In this document: piece after piece, positions 1,257 through 64,000 of the stretch
How the letters are laid out: the number at the start of each line of letters is the position of its first letter
Numbering within the stretch: the first letter of the stretch is position 1
NCBI RefSeq assembly: GCF_003586305.1
Contig: NZ_QXJI01000001.1
Location: 310,001 to 374,000 of the forward strand
From: Cognatilysobacter tabacisoli
GTDB lineage: Bacteria > Pseudomonadota > Gammaproteobacteria > Xanthomonadales > Xanthomonadaceae
DNA length: 64,000 bases
Direction: 5' to 3'
Position numbers and translations under genes: made by a program
Notes under the pieces: generated by a model
Told to the model about the DNA's origin: nothing
Databases searched by the model: none
The model's input: the letters and a program-made list of their open reading frames with translations, nothing else

Positions 1257-1477
1257 CGCGGGCAGGGTACGGGCTGGGGCCTCGCCCGGGAAGCGGCCCG
1301 GCGCGGGGCCGGGCCGCCGCGGCAAGGCCGGCAGCGGCACGGCGGTCGAAACGTCCATGTTCGGATCAACGGGCATGGCGGGCAGACGGGGTTGGCCGCG
1401 TCGCCGGCGGTGCGCGCGTTATCCTCGTGAGTCAGGAATGGCGGCGAACGGGGGCCGCACACCCAATGGAGCAAGCG

Positions 1478-54151: not shown

Positions 54152-55543
54152 TTGATCAAGCCGCGAACCCCGCCCGGGGTCATGGAGCTGCTGCCTCCTG
54201 ACCAGATCGCGTTCCAGCGCATGCTGGACACGATCCGCCGCAACTTCGAGCGGTTCGGCTTCCTGCCGGTGGAAACCCCGGTCATGGAGCTGTCCGAGGT
54301 GCTGCTGACGAAGTCGGGCGGAGAAACCGAGCGGCAGGTGTACTTCGTGCAGTCGACCGGCGCGCTGGCCAAGACTGCCGACGGCGCGGGCGAGGGCGTG
54401 CCGGAGCTGGCGCTGCGCTTCGACCTGACCGTGCCGCTGGCCCGCTACGTGGCCGAGCACGAGCACGAGCTCGCGTTCCCGTTCCGCCGCTACCAGATGC
54501 AGCGCGTCTACCGCGGCGAGCGCGCCCAGCGCGGGCGCTTCCGCGAGTTCTACCAGTGCGACATCGACGTGATCGGCAAGGATGCGTTGAGCGTCCGCCA
54601 CGATGCCGAACTGCCGGCGGTCATCTACGCGGTGTTCTCCGAGCTGGCGATCGGCGCGTTCACCATCCAGCTCAACAACCGCAAGCTCATGCGTGGGTTC
54701 TTCGAAGCGCAGGGCGTCGCCGACGGCGAGTTGCAGGCGCTGGTGCTGCGCGAGGTCGACAAGCTCGACAAGCGCGGCGAGGACTACGTCCGCGAGACGC
54801 TGGCGGGCCAAGGTTTCGGCCTGCCCGCCGATGCCATCGGCCGCATCCTCGATTTCGTCAAGGTGCGTTCGACCTCGCACGGCGACGCGCTGGCGCGGCT
54901 GGCCGCGCTCGGCGACGGCAACGAAGCGCTGCGCCAAGGCGTGGCCGAGCTGCGCGAGGTGCTGGAGCTCGTGCGCGCGATGGGCGTGCCGGAAACGCAC
55001 TACGCGCTGAACTTCTCGATCGCGCGCGGGCTCGACTACTACACCGGCACCGTCTACGAGACCACGCTCAACGACTACCCGCAGATCGGCTCGATCTGCT
55101 CGGGCGGCCGCTACGAGGACCTCGCCGGTCACTACACCAAGTCGAAGCTGCCCGGCGTCGGCATTTCGATCGGGCTGACGCGGCTGTTCTGGCAGCTGCG
55201 CGAGGCCGGCATCGTCGACCGCGCCAGCAGCACCGTGCAGGTGCTGGTCACGCAGATGGACGAGGCGCACCTGCCGCACTGCCTCGCGGTGGCCAGCGAG
55301 CTGCGCCACGGCGGCATCAACACCGAAGTCGTGATGGAGCCGTCCAAGCTCGGCAAGCAGTTCAAGTACGCAGACCGCGCCGGCATCCGCTTCGTCGTCG
55401 TGCTGGGCGAGGACGAGATCGGCAAGGGCACGGTGACGGTCAAGGACCTGCGCCGCGAAGACCAGTTCGAGGTCGCCCGCAGCGAGCTGGCGCGCACGCT
55501 GCGCGTCGAGCTGGCACAGGCCGCGGCGCTGGTGTCGGCATGA
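54152..55543 (+). CDS. hisS: Histidyl-tRNA synthetase
   Basis: The 463-residue class II synthetase has [20 protein letters not shown] at the N-terminus. Motif 2 is [28 protein letters not shown]. The histidine-specific block [16 protein letters not shown] and motif 3 [12 protein letters not shown] follow. A C-terminal anticodon-binding domain is present. The start is TTG at 54152, with GGAG seven bases upstream; no ATG gives the conserved N-terminus. A TTAAAC -10-like box is near 54103. The stop overlaps the ammonia-lyase start by 4 nt. Confidence 0.95.
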
Positions 55544-57438
55544 AGCGCGTCCGCCTCGACGGCCGCTCGCTGACCCGCGCGCAGCTGGTCGCCGTCGCCC
55601 ACGGCGCGCAGGTCGAGCTGGCCGAGGACCAGCTGCCCGCGGTCGCGCGCGCGGCCGATTTCCTCGCCGAGCAGGTCCGCCGCGAGGAACCCATCTACGG
55701 CGTGTCGACCGGCTTCGGCAGCAATGCCGACCGCCTGCTCGGCGGCCACCACCTGCGCGACGAGCTGCCCGGCGCGACGCGTTCGGCCGAGGGCCTGCAC
55801 GAGGAGCTGCAGCGCAACCTGATCGTGACCCACGCGGTCTGCGTCGGCGAGCCATTCGCGCCCGAGGTGGTCCGCGCGATGGTGTGCATCCGCATCAACA
55901 CGCTGATGCGCGGCCACTCCGGCATCCGCGTGCAGACGCTGCAGGCGATGGCGGCGATGCTCAACGCCGGGATCGTGCCGCTGGTGCCGCAGCTGGGCTC
56001 GGTCGGCGCGTCGGGCGACCTGGCGCCGCTGTCGCACCTGGCGATCGTGCTGCTCGGCGGTGGCGAAGCGTTCTACCAGGGCGAGCGCGTGGCGGGCGCC
56101 GTGGCGCTGGAGCGTGCGGGCCTGGCGCCGGTGACGCTGTCGTACAAGGAAGGGCTCGCCCTGAACAACGGCACCGCGCAGATGCTGGCCTGCGGCGTGC
56201 TGGCGCTCGCGCGCCTGGAGGAGCTGCTCGACACCGCCGACCTGGCCGCGGCGATGACGATCGACGCGTTTGCCGGCCGGCTCGGCGCGTTCGCGCCCGA
56301 GGTCCATGCGCTGCGCCCGCACCCGGGCCAGGTCGCCGCCGCCGAGCACATCCGCACGCTGCTGGCCGGCTCAACGCTGGCCGACATCCCGTACCACCTG
56401 GTGCCGCGCTTCCGCCCGTGGCTGCCGACCAGCTGGGACACCCACGAGGCGCAGGCGCTGCGCTTCGACATCGGCTGGGACTGGGTGCCGCTGACCCAGC
56501 GCCACGGCCGCGAGAAGTTCTACCAGCGCTTCCGTCCGTTCCGCGGCGGCAAGAAGCACCAGCCGCAGGACAGCTACTCGCTGCGCTGCACGCCGCAGGT
56601 GCACGGTGCGGTGCGCGATGCCGCGGCGCAGGCCGCGCGCGTGCTCGAGGTCGAGCTCAACGCGCTGACCGACAACCCGATCGTGTTCCCGGACGCGCAG
56701 GCCGAGCACGTCGAGCAGCAGGTGATCTCGGCCGGCCACTTCCACGGCATGCCGCTGGCGCTGGCGATGAGCTACGTCAAGGCGGCGATCCCGGTGCTGG
56801 CGAGCATCTCCGAGCGCCGGCTCAACAAGCTGGTCGACCCGGCCACCAGCGACGGCCTGCCGGGCTTCCTGATCGGCAACGAGGACGCGACCGAATCGGG
56901 TCACATGATCGTGCAGTACACCGCCGCGGCGATCGTCAACGACCTCGCCAGCCGTGCGCACCCGGCCTCGGTGTACTCGATCCCGACCAGCGCCAACGCC
57001 GAGGACCACGTGTCGATGGGCGCCAACGAGGCGCGCCACGTGCTGGCGATGGTCGACGACCTCGGCAAGGTGCTCGCGCTCGAGCTGTACACCGCCGCAC
57101 AGGCGCTGGACCTGCGCCGCGACATGATCAACGCCGCGCGCGCGCTGGCCGGGCGTGCCGATGCGGCGGCGCTGGCGACGAAGGTGGCCGGCGGCCCGGC
57201 ACCCGACGCGGCGGACTACCCGGTGTTCCTGGCCGAGGTCGAAGCGCTGCGCGCCGAGCTCGCCGCCGCCGACGCGTTCCGTCCCGGCCACGCGATCGCC
57301 GCGGCGCACGCCGCCATCCGCGCCGAGATCGCGTTCCTGGACCGGGACCGCGCGATGGACGGCGAAGTCGCCACCGCCGTCCGGCTGGTCCGCGACGGCG
57401 TGGTGCTCGCGGCAGCGCGCACGGTCGAGCGGGGCTGA
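55540..57438 (+). CDS. Aromatic amino acid (histidine-type) ammonia-lyase, elongated
   Basis: The protein belongs to the HutH/PAL superfamily, which uses a self-made MIO cofactor to remove ammonia from His, Phe or Tyr. The cofactor triplet Ala-Ser-Gly is at 157-159 in [37 protein letters not shown] and the late [10 protein letters not shown] are also present. The substrate-switch region reads LIVTH, closer to the Ser-His of histidine lyases than to His-Leu of tyrosine lyases. The 632 residues exceed the usual ~510. Part of the excess is a basic/aromatic insertion (about 282-342) before QDSYS. It is coupled to hisS by 4 nt, not to other hut genes, so the physiological substrate is uncertain. 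Confidence 0.85.
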
Positions 57439-57499: not shown

Positions 57500-59326
57500 T
57501 CAGGCTGGCACGGCGCCCGACGTGCGGACGCGGTCGCGTCCGTCGGCCTTGGCGTGGTACAGCGCCTGGTCGGCCTGCTTGAACGCGACGTCGATGCCGT
57601 CCTTGCTGCCCGCGCCGAGCGCGTGCACGCCGATGCTGACCGACATGCTGACAACCTGTTCGCCGCAGTCGCACGGCGCACCGGCCACCGCGGCGCGCAC
57701 CTGTTCGGCGATCTGCGCCGCACGCGCCAGGTCGGCGCCGGGCAGGGCGGCGACGAACTCCTCGCCGCCGAAGCGGGCGAGCAGCGCCTGGTGCGGGCGC
57801 AGCGCCTGGCCGATGGCGTGCGCGGCCGCGCGCAGGCACTCGTCGCCGGCGAGGTGGCCGTAGCGGTCGTTGATCGCCTTGAAGTGGTCCAGGTCGATCA
57901 TCAGCACGGCCAGCGGCCGCCCGGTGTGGCGCGACTGCTCGAGCAGCGGCTCGAACGCCTCGTGGAAGTACTTGCGCGTGTGCAGGCCGGTCAGGCCGTC
58001 GCGCTGGCTGGTCTCGCGCAGCCGCGCGTGCGCATCGCCGAGCTGGGCCAAAGCGGAGCGCAGCTCCGAGGTGCGCTGCTCGACCTTGTGCTCGAGCTGC
58101 AGCTTGGCCTCGCGCACGATCCGCTCGTTCTCGGTGCGCAGCGCGGCGTAGCGGTAGCTCAGCGCGACCGACAGCAGCAGCATCTCGAGCGCCGAGCCCA
58201 TCTGCACGCCGTACTCGGTGACGAAGTTCTTCGGCACCGCGCCGAACGCGACCGCGGTGAACATGCCGGTACCGAGCAGGAACATCGCCCACGCCAGCAG
58301 GAACAGCCGGGCCGGCTTGTAGCCGCGGCGCATCGTCACGACCGCCGCTATGGCGATCCAGGTGATGCTGATGAACACCGCCGCCGCCGCGATCGGGGTC
58401 GACAGCTCGTACGGCAGCCAGATCGACGCGACGCCGAGCAGCACGAAGAACACGATGAAGCCCATGCCGACGCGGTCGCCCAGCGTCCAGCGGGTGCCCA
58501 GGTCGAGGAACACCCGCGCGAACTGCTGCATGCCGACCTGCGCCAGGCAGATCGACAGCGGCACGGACTTGTCGGCCAGCCAGGCCGAGTTGGGCCACAG
58601 GTATTCGAAGCCCAGCCCGTTGAGCGTAAACAGCACCAGCCCGAACGCGGAGATGTGCAGCAGGTACCAGAAGTAGCTGGCGTCGCGCAGGGTCAGCCAC
58701 AGCACCAGGTTGTAGAAGAACAGCGCGATCAGGATCCCGTAGTACAGGCCGATGCCGAACTGCGCGTCGCGCGCGAGCTCGGCGAACGCGCTCGGCGTGT
58801 ACAGCACCAGCGGCACCTGCATCGAGCTCTGGCTCTCGACCCGGACGAACAGGTCGACCGGCGTGTCGTACGGCAGGTCGAGCTGGAAGTTGGGATGGCG
58901 GTAGCGGATGCTGCGCGCGCTGAAGGGCAGGGTGTCGCCGCCGGCCTGGTGGGCGATGCGCCCGTCGCCGTAGCGCACGTAGGTGTCGATCTGGTCGCTG
59001 AGCGCGTACTGCTGCACCAGCAGCCAGCGCGGCTGGTCCGAGGCGCGATTGACCAGCGGGACGTGGAACCAGAACGCGCCGGCCTGGAAGCCGAACGACG
59101 AACTGCCGCCCGGCAGCGGGGCGAACCCGCCCTGCGCGAGGCGCTGGTCGATGTCGACCAGGTCCATCCGGCCGCCGGGGTCGTGCAGGTAGCGCACGTG
59201 CGGCGACAGCGGCACCTGGCTGGCGGCGCGGGTCAGTTCGACCGGCGTCTGCGCGTGCGCGGGCAGGCCGGCCAGCGCCAACGCGCCGCCGAGCACCGTC
59301 GCCCACACCGTCCGCCAGACCCCCAT
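57500..59326 (-). CDS. Membrane diguanylate cyclase, 7TMR-DISM type (GGEEF)
   Basis: The 608-residue protein has a signal peptide (cleavage near AHAQ) and a periplasmic 7TMR-DISMED2 sensor (about 30-185). Seven transmembrane helices, a short coiled coil (EHKVEQRTSELRSALAQLGD) and a GGDEF domain follow. The active site is GGEEF, and MIDLDHFKAINDRYGHLAGDE is intact, so it should make c-di-GMP. No RxxD inhibitory site is present before GGEEF. The start MGVWRTVWATVL at 59326 gives a proper signal peptide. It converges on the ammonia-lyase gene and is divergent from the his operon. Confidence 0.9.
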   Translation of the reverse strand: MGVWRTVWATVLGGALALAGLPAHAQTPVELTRAASQVPLSPHVRYLHDPGGRMDLVDIDQRLAQGGFAPLPGGSSSFGFQAGAFWFHVPLVNRASDQPRWLLVQQYALSDQIDTYVRYGDGRIAHQAGGDTLPFSARSIRYRHPNFQLDLPYDTPVDLFVRVESQSSMQVPLVLYTPSAFAELARDAQFGIGLYYGILIALFFYNLVLWLTLRDASYFWYLLHISAFGLVLFTLNGLGFEYLWPNSAWLADKSVPLSICLAQVGMQQFARVFLDLGTRWTLGDRVGMGFIVFFVLLGVASIWLPYELSTPIAAAAVFISITWIAIAAVVTMRRGYKPARLFLLAWAMFLLGTGMFTAVAFGAVPKNFVTEYGVQMGSALEMLLLSVALSYRYAALRTENERIVREAKLQLEHKVEQRTSELRSALAQLGDAHARLRETSQRDGLTGLHTRKYFHEAFEPLLEQSRHTGRPLAVLMIDLDHFKAINDRYGHLAGDECLRAAAHAIGQALRPHQALLARFGGEEFVAALPGADLARAAQIAEQVRAAVAGAPCDCGEQVVSMSVSIGVHALGAGSKDGIDVAFKQADQALYHAKADGRDRVRTSGAVPA

Positions 59327-59474: not shown

Positions 59475-59502
59475 TTGACGGCCGGACGGGTGCATCGTTA
59501 AT
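59475..59502 (+). promoter_or_regulatory. Candidate promoter of yerC-hisGDCB
   Basis: TTGACG (59475-59480) and GTTAAT (59497-59502) are spaced by 16 bp. The -10 region runs into the palindromic operator, so a bound repressor would block initiation. Confidence 0.55.
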
Positions 59503-59523
59503 GTATTAGCGCATTAATACATT
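59500..59523 (+). promoter_or_regulatory. Palindromic operator upstream of yerC-his
   Basis: AATGTATTA (59500-59508) and TAATACATT (59515-59523) are a perfect 9-bp inverted repeat around GCGCAT. This A+T-rich 24-mer stands out in a 70% G+C region and overlaps the -10 box. It lies 54 bp before the TrpR-like gene, its most likely binding protein. Confidence 0.75.
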
Positions 59524-59576
59524 GGTTCGCACTCCGACGCCCCCAGGGCGCCCGGACCTCGCCACGGAATCCAGCC

Positions 59577-59888
59577 ATGAAGCGACGCAGCGCCGACATC
59601 GAGGGGAACGACGACGCCATCGACCGGCTCGCGGCCGCATTCGCCGGGCTGCGCACGGCCGAGCAGGTGCGCGCCTTCCTCGAGGACCTGTGCACGCCCG
59701 CCGAGCTAGAGGCCATGACCGACCGCTGGCGGGTGGTCCCGCTGCTGGCCGAGGGCGTGCCGTACCGCGAAATCCACGACCGCACGCTGGTCAGCGTGAC
59801 CACGATCGGGCGCGTCGCCCGGACCCTCGAGCGCGGCGCCGGCGGCTACGCGGCCGCCCTGCGCAAACGCCCGGCGCGCGCCGGGTGA
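59577..59888 (+). CDS. TrpR/YerC-family regulator, probable histidine-operon repressor
   Basis: The 103-residue protein is a helical TrpR-superfamily member of the YerC/YecD group. It has the helix-turn-helix [32 protein letters not shown] after the conserved [13 protein letters not shown]. It is the first gene of the histidine operon, 55 bp before hisG. A perfect palindrome overlies its promoter. Autoregulated repression of his genes in response to histidine is the natural inference; the ligand is not shown by the sequence. GGAA stands eight bases before the ATG. Confidence 0.87.
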
Positions 59889-59943: not shown

Positions 59944-60858
59944 ATGAGTCCTGCGCCCCCCGTCGCCTCGCGCGACCGCCTCCGCATCGCGATCCAAAAG
60001 TCCGGCCGGCTGGCCGAACCGGCGCGCGCGCTGCTGGCCTCGTGCGGCCTGAGCTGGCGCGAAAGCCGCGACCGGCTGTTCTGCTACGGCGAAACGCTGC
60101 CGGTCGACCTGCTGCTGGTGCGCGACGACGACATCCCCGGCCTGATCGCCGACGGCGTCTGCGACCTCGGCGTGGTCGGCCGCAACGTGCTGCTCGAGCA
60201 GGACGGCGACCGCCGCGGCGCGGGCAAGCCGGCCGCGTTCCGCGAGCTGCGCGCGCTCGGCTTCGGCGGCTGCCGGCTGATGGTCGCGGTGCCGGACGGC
60301 TGGAGCTGGGACGGCCCGGCGCAGCTGGCCGGCAAGCGCATCGCGACGAGCTACCCGGCGCTCACGGCGCAGTGGCTGGCGCGCAACGGCGTCGACGCCC
60401 AGGTCGTGCTGCTGTCGGGCTCGGTCGAAATCGCACCGAAACTCGGCCAGGCCGACGTCGTCTGCGACCTGGTCTCCAGCGGCGCGACGCTGGCGGCGAA
60501 CCAGCTCAAGCCGGTCGAGACGCTGCTGCAGAGCGAGGCGGTGCTGGCCGGGCCGGTCGGCGAGTTCGACGACGTGCGCGGCGAACTGGCCGACCTGCTG
60601 CTGCGCCGCCTCGACGGCGCGCTGCGGATCAAGCACAGCAAGCTGCTGATGTTCCAGGCCTCGCGCGAGCTGCTGCCGTCGCTGCTGCCGCTGCTGCCCG
60701 ACGCCGAGGCGCCGACGGTGATGCGCATCGACGGCGAAGACGGGCTGGCGCTGCAGGCGCTGTGCCACGGCGCGGTGACGTGGCAGCGACTCGAGGACCT
60801 CAAGCGCGCCGGCGCGCGCGGGCTGATGGTGCTGCCGGTCGAGGGGATGCTGGCATGA
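59944..60858 (+). CDS. hisG: ATP phosphoribosyltransferase (long form)
   Basis: HisG starts histidine synthesis by joining ATP and PRPP. The 304-residue protein is the long, hexameric form with a C-terminal ACT-like domain for histidine feedback. Motifs are [32 protein letters not shown], and the PRPP loop [20 protein letters not shown]. No separate hisZ is needed. The stop overlaps hisD by 4 nt. Confidence 0.96.
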
Positions 60859-62156
60859 AGCGCCTCGACTGGAATGCCCTCGACGCCGACGCGCAGGCCG
60901 CCGCGCTGCGCCGCCCCAGCCAGGTCACCGCCGCCGAGACCAGCGCGGCGGTGTCGCGCCTGATCGAGGCGGTGCGCGCGCGCGGCGACGACGAACTGCG
61001 CGCGCTGACGCAGCGCTTTGACGGGGTTGAACTCGCCGCCCTGCAGGCGTCGGCCGACGAGATCGCCGCCGCCCCGGCGCAGTTGAGCCCGGCGCTGCGC
61101 ATCGCGATCGACGACGCGGCCGCGCGCATCGAAACCTTCCACGCCGCCGGCATGACCCGCGCGTATGCGGTCGACACCGCGCCGGGCGTGCGCTGCGAGC
61201 GGATGCTGCGGCCGATCCCGCGCGTAGGCCTGTACGTGCCGGCCGGTTCCGCGCCGCTGCCGTCGACCGCGCTGATGCTGGGCGTGCCGGCCCGGCTGGC
61301 CGGCTGCCCGGAGGTGGTGCTGTGCACGCCGCCGCGCGCGGACGGCAGCGCCGACCCCGCGGTGCTGTACGCGGCCGCGCGCTGCGGCATCGGCACCGTG
61401 TTCAAGCTCGGCGGCGCGCAGGCGATCGCCGCGATGGCGTTCGGCACGCGCAGCGTGCCCAAGTGCGACAAGCTGTTCGGGCCCGGCAACGGCTACGTCA
61501 CCGAAGCCAAGCGCCAGGTGTCGATGCTCGACGGCGGCGCGGCGATCGACATGCCGGCCGGCCCATCCGAGGTGCTGGTAATCGCCGATGCCGGCGCGAA
61601 CCCGGCCTTCGTCGCCGCCGACCTGCTGTCGCAGGCCGAGCACGGTCCCGATTCGCAGGTGATCCTGCTCAGCGACAGCGACGCGCTGCTCGATGCGGTG
61701 GACGTGGAGCTGCGCACGCAGCTCGACACGCTGTCGCGCGCCGGCGTCGCCACCCGCGCGCTGGACGCGTCGCGAGGCATCCGCGTGGCGTCGATCGGGC
61801 AGGCGCTGGAGGTCAGCAACCGCTACGCGCCCGAGCACCTGATCCTTGCCCTGCGCGACGCGCGCGTGTGGCTGCCGCAGGTCGCCAGCGCCGGGTCGGT
61901 GTTCCTCGGCGACTGGGCGCCCGAGGCGCTCGGCGACTACTGCAGCGGAACCAACCACGTGCTGCCCACCAGCGGGGCGGCGCGCTTCACCGGCGGGGTC
62001 AACGTCGCCAGCTTCCAGGTCGCGATCACGGTGCAGGAGGTGACGCGCGAAGGCGTCGCCGCGATCGGCCCGTGCGCGGTCGAGCTGGCCAACGCCGAGG
62101 GTCTCGACGCGCACCGCCAAGCGGTCGCACTGCGGCTGCAGGCGGTGGCGGCATGA
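60855..62156 (+). CDS. hisD: Histidinol dehydrogenase
   Basis: HisD carries out the last two oxidations to histidine with NAD and zinc. The 433-residue protein shows [34 protein letters not shown], the signature [15 protein letters not shown], and [11 protein letters not shown] with the zinc ligands. [10 protein letters not shown] and [11 protein letters not shown] with the catalytic His follow. It is coupled to hisG and hisC by 4-nt overlaps. Confidence 0.97.
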
Positions 62157-63250
62157 GCGCGCCGGTGGCCGGGGTGATCGACCTCGTTCGCGAGGACCTC
62201 CGCGCGTTCGGCGGGTACCGTTCGGCACGCAGCGAGCGTGTCGACGGGCAGGTGTGGCTCAACGCGAACGAATCGCCGTGGGCGAATCCAGCCGACGCCG
62301 ACGCCACGGCGCGGCGCTATCCGGACCCGCAGCCGGCCGACCTGCGCGCGGCGCTGGCCGCCCTTTACGGCTGCCGGCCCGAGCAGCTGCTGGCCGGGCG
62401 CGGCAGTGACGAGGGCATCGACCTGCTCGTGCGCGCGCTGTGCACGCCGGGGCAGGGCGCCATCGTCGTCACCACGCCGACCTTCGGCATGTACGCGGTG
62501 GTCGCGCGGGTGCAGGCCGCGCGGGTCGTGGACGTGCCGCTCGACGACGGCGCCGACGGATTCACCTGCGACTTCGATGCGGTCGCCGAGGCGGCCGAAC
62601 GGGCCCAGGCGCGGCTGGTGTTCCTGTGCTCGCCGGGCAATCCGTCGGGGACCGCGCTGCCGCTGCCGCGCATCGCCGCGCTGGCGCGGCGGTTGGCCGG
62701 ACGGGCCGTGGTCGTCGTCGACGAAGCCTACGGCGAGTACGCGAGCGGACCGTCCGCGGTCACCCTGCTCGATGCGCACGACAACATCGCCGTCCTGCGC
62801 ACGCTGTCGAAGGCGCACGCGCTGGCCGCGGCGCGCGTCGGCGCGGTGATCGCGCACGCCGAGCTGATCGCCGTGCTGCAGCGCTGCCAGGCGCCGTACC
62901 CGCTGCCGCAGCCGTGCGTGGCGCTGGCCATGCAGGCGCTGTCGCCGCCGTCGCTGGCGACCACGCGCGAGCGCATCGTCACCACGATCATGGAGCGCGA
63001 CGCGCTGCGCGTCGCGCTGTCGGCGACGCCCGGCGTGCGCCGCGCGTACCCGTCGCAGGCCAACTTCGTCCTGGCCCGATTCGACGACGCGCAGGCGGCG
63101 TGGGACGCGCTGCTTGCGTCCGGCGTGGTGATCCGCGACTTCCGCGCGACGCCGCGTCTCGGCGACGCGTTGCGGATCACCATTGGCACGCCCGAGCAGA
63201 ACGCGCTCGTGCTCGAGACCCTGCGCGGCGTGCGCGAGGCCGCCGCATGA
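62153..63250 (+). CDS. hisC: Histidinol-phosphate aminotransferase
   Basis: The 365-residue PLP enzyme has [12 protein letters not shown] near the N-terminus, [28 protein letters not shown], and [11 protein letters not shown]. The PLP lysine is in [14 protein letters not shown]. It transaminates imidazole-acetol phosphate. It overlaps hisD and hisB by 4 nt each. Confidence 0.96.
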
Positions 63251-64000
63251 ATGCCCTGACGTCCACCGCGCTGCGGCCGATCCTGTTCGTCGACCGAGAC
63301 GGCACCCTGATCGAGGAGCCGACCGACTTCCAGATCGATGCCTTCGAAAAGCTGCGCTTCGTGCGCGGCGTGATCCCGGCGATGCTGAAGCTGCGCGACG
63401 CCGGCTACGAGTTCGTCATGGTGACCAACCAGGACGGGCTGGGTACCGCGTCGTACCCGCAGGCGAGCTTCGACGGCCCGCACGCGCTGATGATGCAGGT
63501 GTTCGAGAGCCAGGGCATCGTGTTCCGCGATGTGCTGATCGACACCAGCTTCCCGGCCGACAACGCGCCGACGCGCAAGCCCGGCATCGCGCTCGCGGTG
63601 CCGCTGCTGCAGGACCGCTCGATCGACTGGAAGCGCTCGGCGATGGTCGGCGACCGCGAGACCGACAACGGCTTCGCCCGCAACCTCGGCATCCGCGCCT
63701 TCCAGCTGCGCACCGAGCAGTTCGGCGGCGAGTGGGACTGGGCCGGCATCGCCCACGCGCTGGCCGACGCGCCGCGCACGGCGTCGATCCAGCGCAACAC
63801 GCGCGAGACGCGGATCCGCGTCAGCGTCGACCTCGACCGCGCCGCCGAACCGGCGGTGCAAACCGGGCTGGGCTTCTTCGACCACATGCTCGAGCAGCTC
63901 GGCAAGCACGGCGGCTTCGCGCTGGAGCTGCACTGCGACGGCGACCTGAAGATCGACGAGCACCACACGATCGAGGACTGCGCGCTGGCGCTCGGCCAGG
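63247..64000 (+). CDS. hisB: Bifunctional histidinol-phosphatase / imidazoleglycerol-phosphate dehydratase (3' end beyond window)
   Basis: The first 251 codons are seen. The N-terminal HAD phosphatase has [23 protein letters not shown] and [12 protein letters not shown]. The dehydratase domain starts near residue 178 with [15 protein letters not shown], then [18 protein letters not shown] and the metal motif [14 protein letters not shown]. This fused form is typical of gammaproteobacteria. The frame is open at the window edge. Confidence 0.96.

Follow-up and report, generated by a model that had tools for sequence, protein, structure and literature searches.

A perfect A+T-rich palindrome that precedes the histidine biosynthesis genes in the window (the whole stretch of 64,000 nucleotides of Cognatilysobacter tabacisoli that was analysed) is, judging from sequence and conservation, very probably the operator of HisR, a repressor encoded by the his operon itself, which would use histidine as its co-repressor and control both its own gene and hisGDCB. 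The prediction of such a HisR-operator arrangement in the same bacterial group dates from 2022, and the present genome is one more instance of it, not a new system. In the accessible parts of that work (Ashniev et al. 2022; PMC9413887), the family is named HisR and reported in Xanthomonadales among others, most Proteobacteria have hisR at the head of the his operon and a predicted site immediately upstream of it, and the proteobacterial motif is printed as TGTAnTArnnnnyTnTTACA. The window resembles this regulon in having hisR as first gene, a site upstream of it and a 20-bp palindrome, with no difference in kind from what is described there. As the mechanism had been proposed earlier, the main value of the analysis lies in its confirmation and in a large natural data set on DNA reading by the TrpR-family recognition helix; moreover, with one protein, one site and one operon, the locus offers a clean and simple system in which a histidine repressor from Proteobacteria could first be put to the test. 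The literature searched yielded no data on binding, expression or ligand for any HisR from Proteobacteria; outside of it lies one cited study on Xanthomonas oryzae, where Su et al. (2018), as cited by Ashniev et al., reportedly dealt with a TrpR-like repressor.

The Probable Operator and Its Genomic Setting

The predicted HisR operator, AATGTATTAGCGCATTAATACATT, is a 24-bp element found exactly at positions 59500-59523 (no strand assigned), forming a perfect inverted repeat AATGTATTA-GCGCAT-TAATACATT with a 20-bp core, TGTATTAGCGCATTAATACA, at 59502-59521. It is the sole match in the window even when up to three mismatches are allowed, 0.00 chance matches being expected for a 24-bp palindrome from 100 shuffles, and the local G+C content around it is 0.71-0.75, in line with the original prediction of a perfect A+T-rich palindrome in a G+C-rich region. 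Across the whole genome (3.12 Mb, rated 100% complete), the pattern TGTANTANNNNNNTANTACA was matched exactly once and a single TrpR-family gene is present, as anticipated for a self-contained module; to the extent that sequence can tell, this module is local in this genome and has no wide regulon. The sole further genome match within two mismatches, at C1:676177, was considered as a second regulon site, but such matches are as frequent with a reversed-pattern control and the genes around it are unrelated, so that a wider regulon was rejected.

The gene directly after the palindrome, hisR (59577..59888, plus strand), encodes a yerC-type repressor of the TrpR superfamily with 103 amino acids, identified by profile matches and predicted fold. 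It stands in first place of the his operon, as had been proposed, and is followed on the plus strand by hisG (ATP phosphoribosyltransferase, 59944..60858), hisD (histidinol dehydrogenase, 60855..62156), hisC (histidinol-phosphate aminotransferase, 62153..63250; PF00155, its exact name being given by the operon position) and hisB (HAD phosphatase and imidazoleglycerol-phosphate dehydratase, 63247..64000, truncated by the window end), each of the last three overlapping its predecessor by four bases.

The HisR Protein and Its Relatives

HisR matches the Pfam family PF01371 (Trp_repressor, E 8.7e-24) and reaches the curated cut-off of TIGR02531 (YerC/YecD), with 57.4 bits against 42.2, while the score against the TrpR equivalog model TIGR01321, 26.3 bits, does not reach its cut-off of 67.25. 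AlphaFold gives a confident model (mean pLDDT 88.8), which is closest to the solved YerC-type structures 3FRW, 3KOR and 3G1C (TM ~0.75, rmsd ~1.4, ~84 residues), the next-best match being the TrpR-operator complex 1TRO. The modelled protein would thus possess a TrpR-like fold nearer to the YerC/HisR structures than to TrpR.

Comparing HisR to Escherichia coli TrpR, the fold and the 20-bp operator layout are common to both; however, their identity is only ~22-24% in the structure alignment, HisR stays below the TIGR01321 cut-off, and TrpR controls trp genes. The HisR proteins of Firmicutes (Bacillus subtilis YerC and Ruminococcus gnavus HisR) belong to the same family, TIGR02531, and the folds 3FRW, 3KOR and 3G1C match, but they differ in their motif, cacTTTAnnnnnnTAAAgtg, in their recognition helix, STATISRVNR, which is unlike that of the window protein, and in their regulons, which take in transporters as well, as far as the available text of PMC9413887 describes them.

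Conservation of the Site with HisR

The palindrome had been expected to persist wherever relatives keep yerC-hisG, and this was found at all three levels compared. HisR is encoded in 53 of the 60 genomes sampled from the family, and in 53/53 the palindrome lies directly 5' of hisR, and hisG follows the latter on the same strand. The alignment of these loci concentrates the information in the 20-bp core, a TAA to its left and a TT to its right, with flanks near background; core positions G2, A7, T14 and A15 are invariant, and positions 4-6 and 16 carry uncompensated differences between the arms in many genomes. Among 80 named loci from Lysobacter, Luteimonas, Xanthomonas, Pseudoxanthomonas and others, 77 sites score 12-14 on a scale of 14; scores do not exceed 10 in far-upstream DNA or 11 in shuffles.

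The order-level set comprises 49 distinct loci, a few of them from the same family, and the site is present at all 47 that are informative, one being weak (L108, with the right half only); the remaining two, L083 and L087, have no site and are uninformative, with only ~70 and ~40 bases upstream before the contig end. At one locus, L110, hisR and hisG appear to be divergent and to flank the HisR site. Few genomes of the class carry HisR (19 of 274, of which 4 are below the cut-off), and ten hisR-hisG loci outside the order have eight clear sites (scores 12-14) and two weaker ones (10-11). The window gene is therefore linked to the his operon in first place and preceded by a 20-bp palindrome that fits the proteobacterial HisR motif and is conserved with the protein. 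The window core agrees with the motif as printed at 13 of 14 defined positions and fully with the symmetric form TGTAnTArnnnnyTAnTACA; because the latter is also the form seen in the 53 loci, the right half of the motif, as it stands in the accessible part of PMC9413887, may contain a slip.

Regarding the 19 genomes of the same order with no HisR match, hisG is present in 15 and missing in 4, and a HisR-type palindrome was found upstream of hisG at none of the 15 loci, where the highest scores lie at 8-12, with no more than 6 of 8 arm pairs, which is chance level for A+T-rich DNA. The HisG proteins of these loci are only 26-30% identical to that of the window and represent a separate hisG lineage; these are not clean losses, and the control is weaker for it. 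Within the family, six of the seven genomes without HisR also have no match to the window hisG, and the seventh has only a fragment at a contig end. Five nearly complete family genomes (G002, G003, G034, G036 and G053) have neither HisR nor a match to the window hisG, and they are probably histidine auxotrophs.

Promoter Anatomy and Proposed Mechanism

The promoter elements described here are consensus matches only. The -35 element, TTGACG (59475..59480, plus strand), is supported by its sequence and by a TTGAC that most family genomes have 26-28 bases 5' of the TGTA in the site, the commonest position being 26 bases, equivalent to a 17-bp spacer, compared to 18 bp in the window. The overlap of the palindrome with the -10 of this promoter, as put forward originally, is upheld, but not the preferred choice of hexamer: GTTAAT (59497-59502, N16) stays possible, whereas the comparison favours TAATGT (59499..59504, plus strand, N18), which lies within the left arm of the operator. 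This putative -10 is supported by the TAA preceding TGT, which is conserved across the 53 aligned family loci. Because TAATGT is favoured in this way, the operator would cover both the -10 element and the start site.

Two promoter arrangements can be distinguished in the family. In class A (31 of 53 genomes, including this window), TTGAC lies 17-19 bp before the TAATGT of the left arm, and 24 of these 31 promoters retain TAATGT or TAACGT. In class B (eight genomes; loci L016, L025, L029, L037, L048, L049, L051 and L052), the TTGAC -35 abuts the operator, which then forms the spacer, and the right arm offers a TACATT -10 at the same spacing; at these loci the hisR leader would be very short or missing. 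The operator itself may thus be core promoter DNA that evolves between two registers, with a left-arm -10 in class A and a right-arm -10 with a short-leader or leaderless hisR mRNA in class B, a reading somewhat more doubtful than probable. The two alternative registers on one operator are a minor added detail; neither promoter registers nor leader lengths, both given here, are described in the accessible portion of PMC9413887.

From the anatomy of site and promoter, we infer repression by steric block with autoregulation; DNA binding, repression and the role of histidine as co-repressor in this organism are likewise deduced. When histidine is plentiful, a histidine-bound HisR dimer would occupy the 20-bp core, covering the -10 element and the start site and blocking RNA polymerase, so that hisR and hisGDCB would fall together in a negative autoregulation. 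Under histidine shortage, HisR would be released and the operon transcribed.

Alternative Explanations

That HisR binds the site but senses a ligand other than histidine, such as tryptophan or a pathway intermediate, is unlikely. A histidine assay exists solely for a Firmicutes HisR, which leaves such a ligand some room; however, the his operon is the only target, the score with the TrpR-specific model is far under its cut-off (26 vs 67 bits), and that assayed protein, from R. gnavus, binds DNA in a histidine-dependent manner and requires L-histidine, according to the available text of PMC9413887. It is very improbable that the palindrome belongs to another regulator and that the adjacent TrpR-like gene is incidental, as the site and HisR co-occur across order and class and are missing together, its 20-bp layout recurs in the operators of the TrpR superfamily and in the published HisR motif, and one site per genome suits a local repressor.

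Enterobacterial his operons use attenuation (described in the accessible part of PMC9413887), thus controlling the same operon by an RNA mechanism, and the RNA fold of the window region contains a 9-bp stem. Nevertheless, this fold is no more stable than shuffles (z 0.07), the Rfam search of the window returned tRNAs only, with no leader or riboswitch, and a leader peptide with His codons and a terminator were not found between the promoter and the first gene at the window locus. The operator ends 55 nt from the start codon in the window and only 7-24 nt from it in most genomes, which leaves no room there for the leader peptide and terminator of an attenuator. An inverted repeat working in RNA as a hairpin of the his leader, be it attenuator or riboswitch, was therefore rejected as scarcely credible, all the more so as the -10 in the left arm would make the transcript begin inside the repeat and the arms differ without compensation at core positions 4-6 and 16 in many genomes.

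Recognition Helix and Neighbouring Genes

Returning to the HisR operator, the recognition helix of the protein, VSVTT[IV]GRVAR, is nearly fixed. The sole HisR with the helix VSTTTITRVAR, at locus L038 (~1440-1475, minus strand), has a perfect but altered palindrome, CGTGTTAATGCGTTAACACG, which hints at a code linking helix and operator. No such code is established by this single case, as class members with the helix VSVTTITRVAR retain sites such as TGTTATAATACGCTAATACA, and a DNA-pattern search for the VSTTTITRVAR helix in 395 family genomes returned only the original at zero mismatches, the rest being noise.

Upstream of the his operon, the window also encodes an aromatic amino acid lyase whose sequence is that of a histidine ammonia-lyase (hutH; ~55501-57438, plus strand; PF00221, 1.3e-167), near which the window search with up to three mismatches found no HisR-type site. 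At a distance of ~2 kb from the operon, it makes genes of histidine breakdown and synthesis near neighbours. Between them, a 7TMR-DISM diguanylate cyclase (GGDEF; 57503-59326, minus strand) is divergent from hisR, its start lying ~150 bases from the hisR -35.
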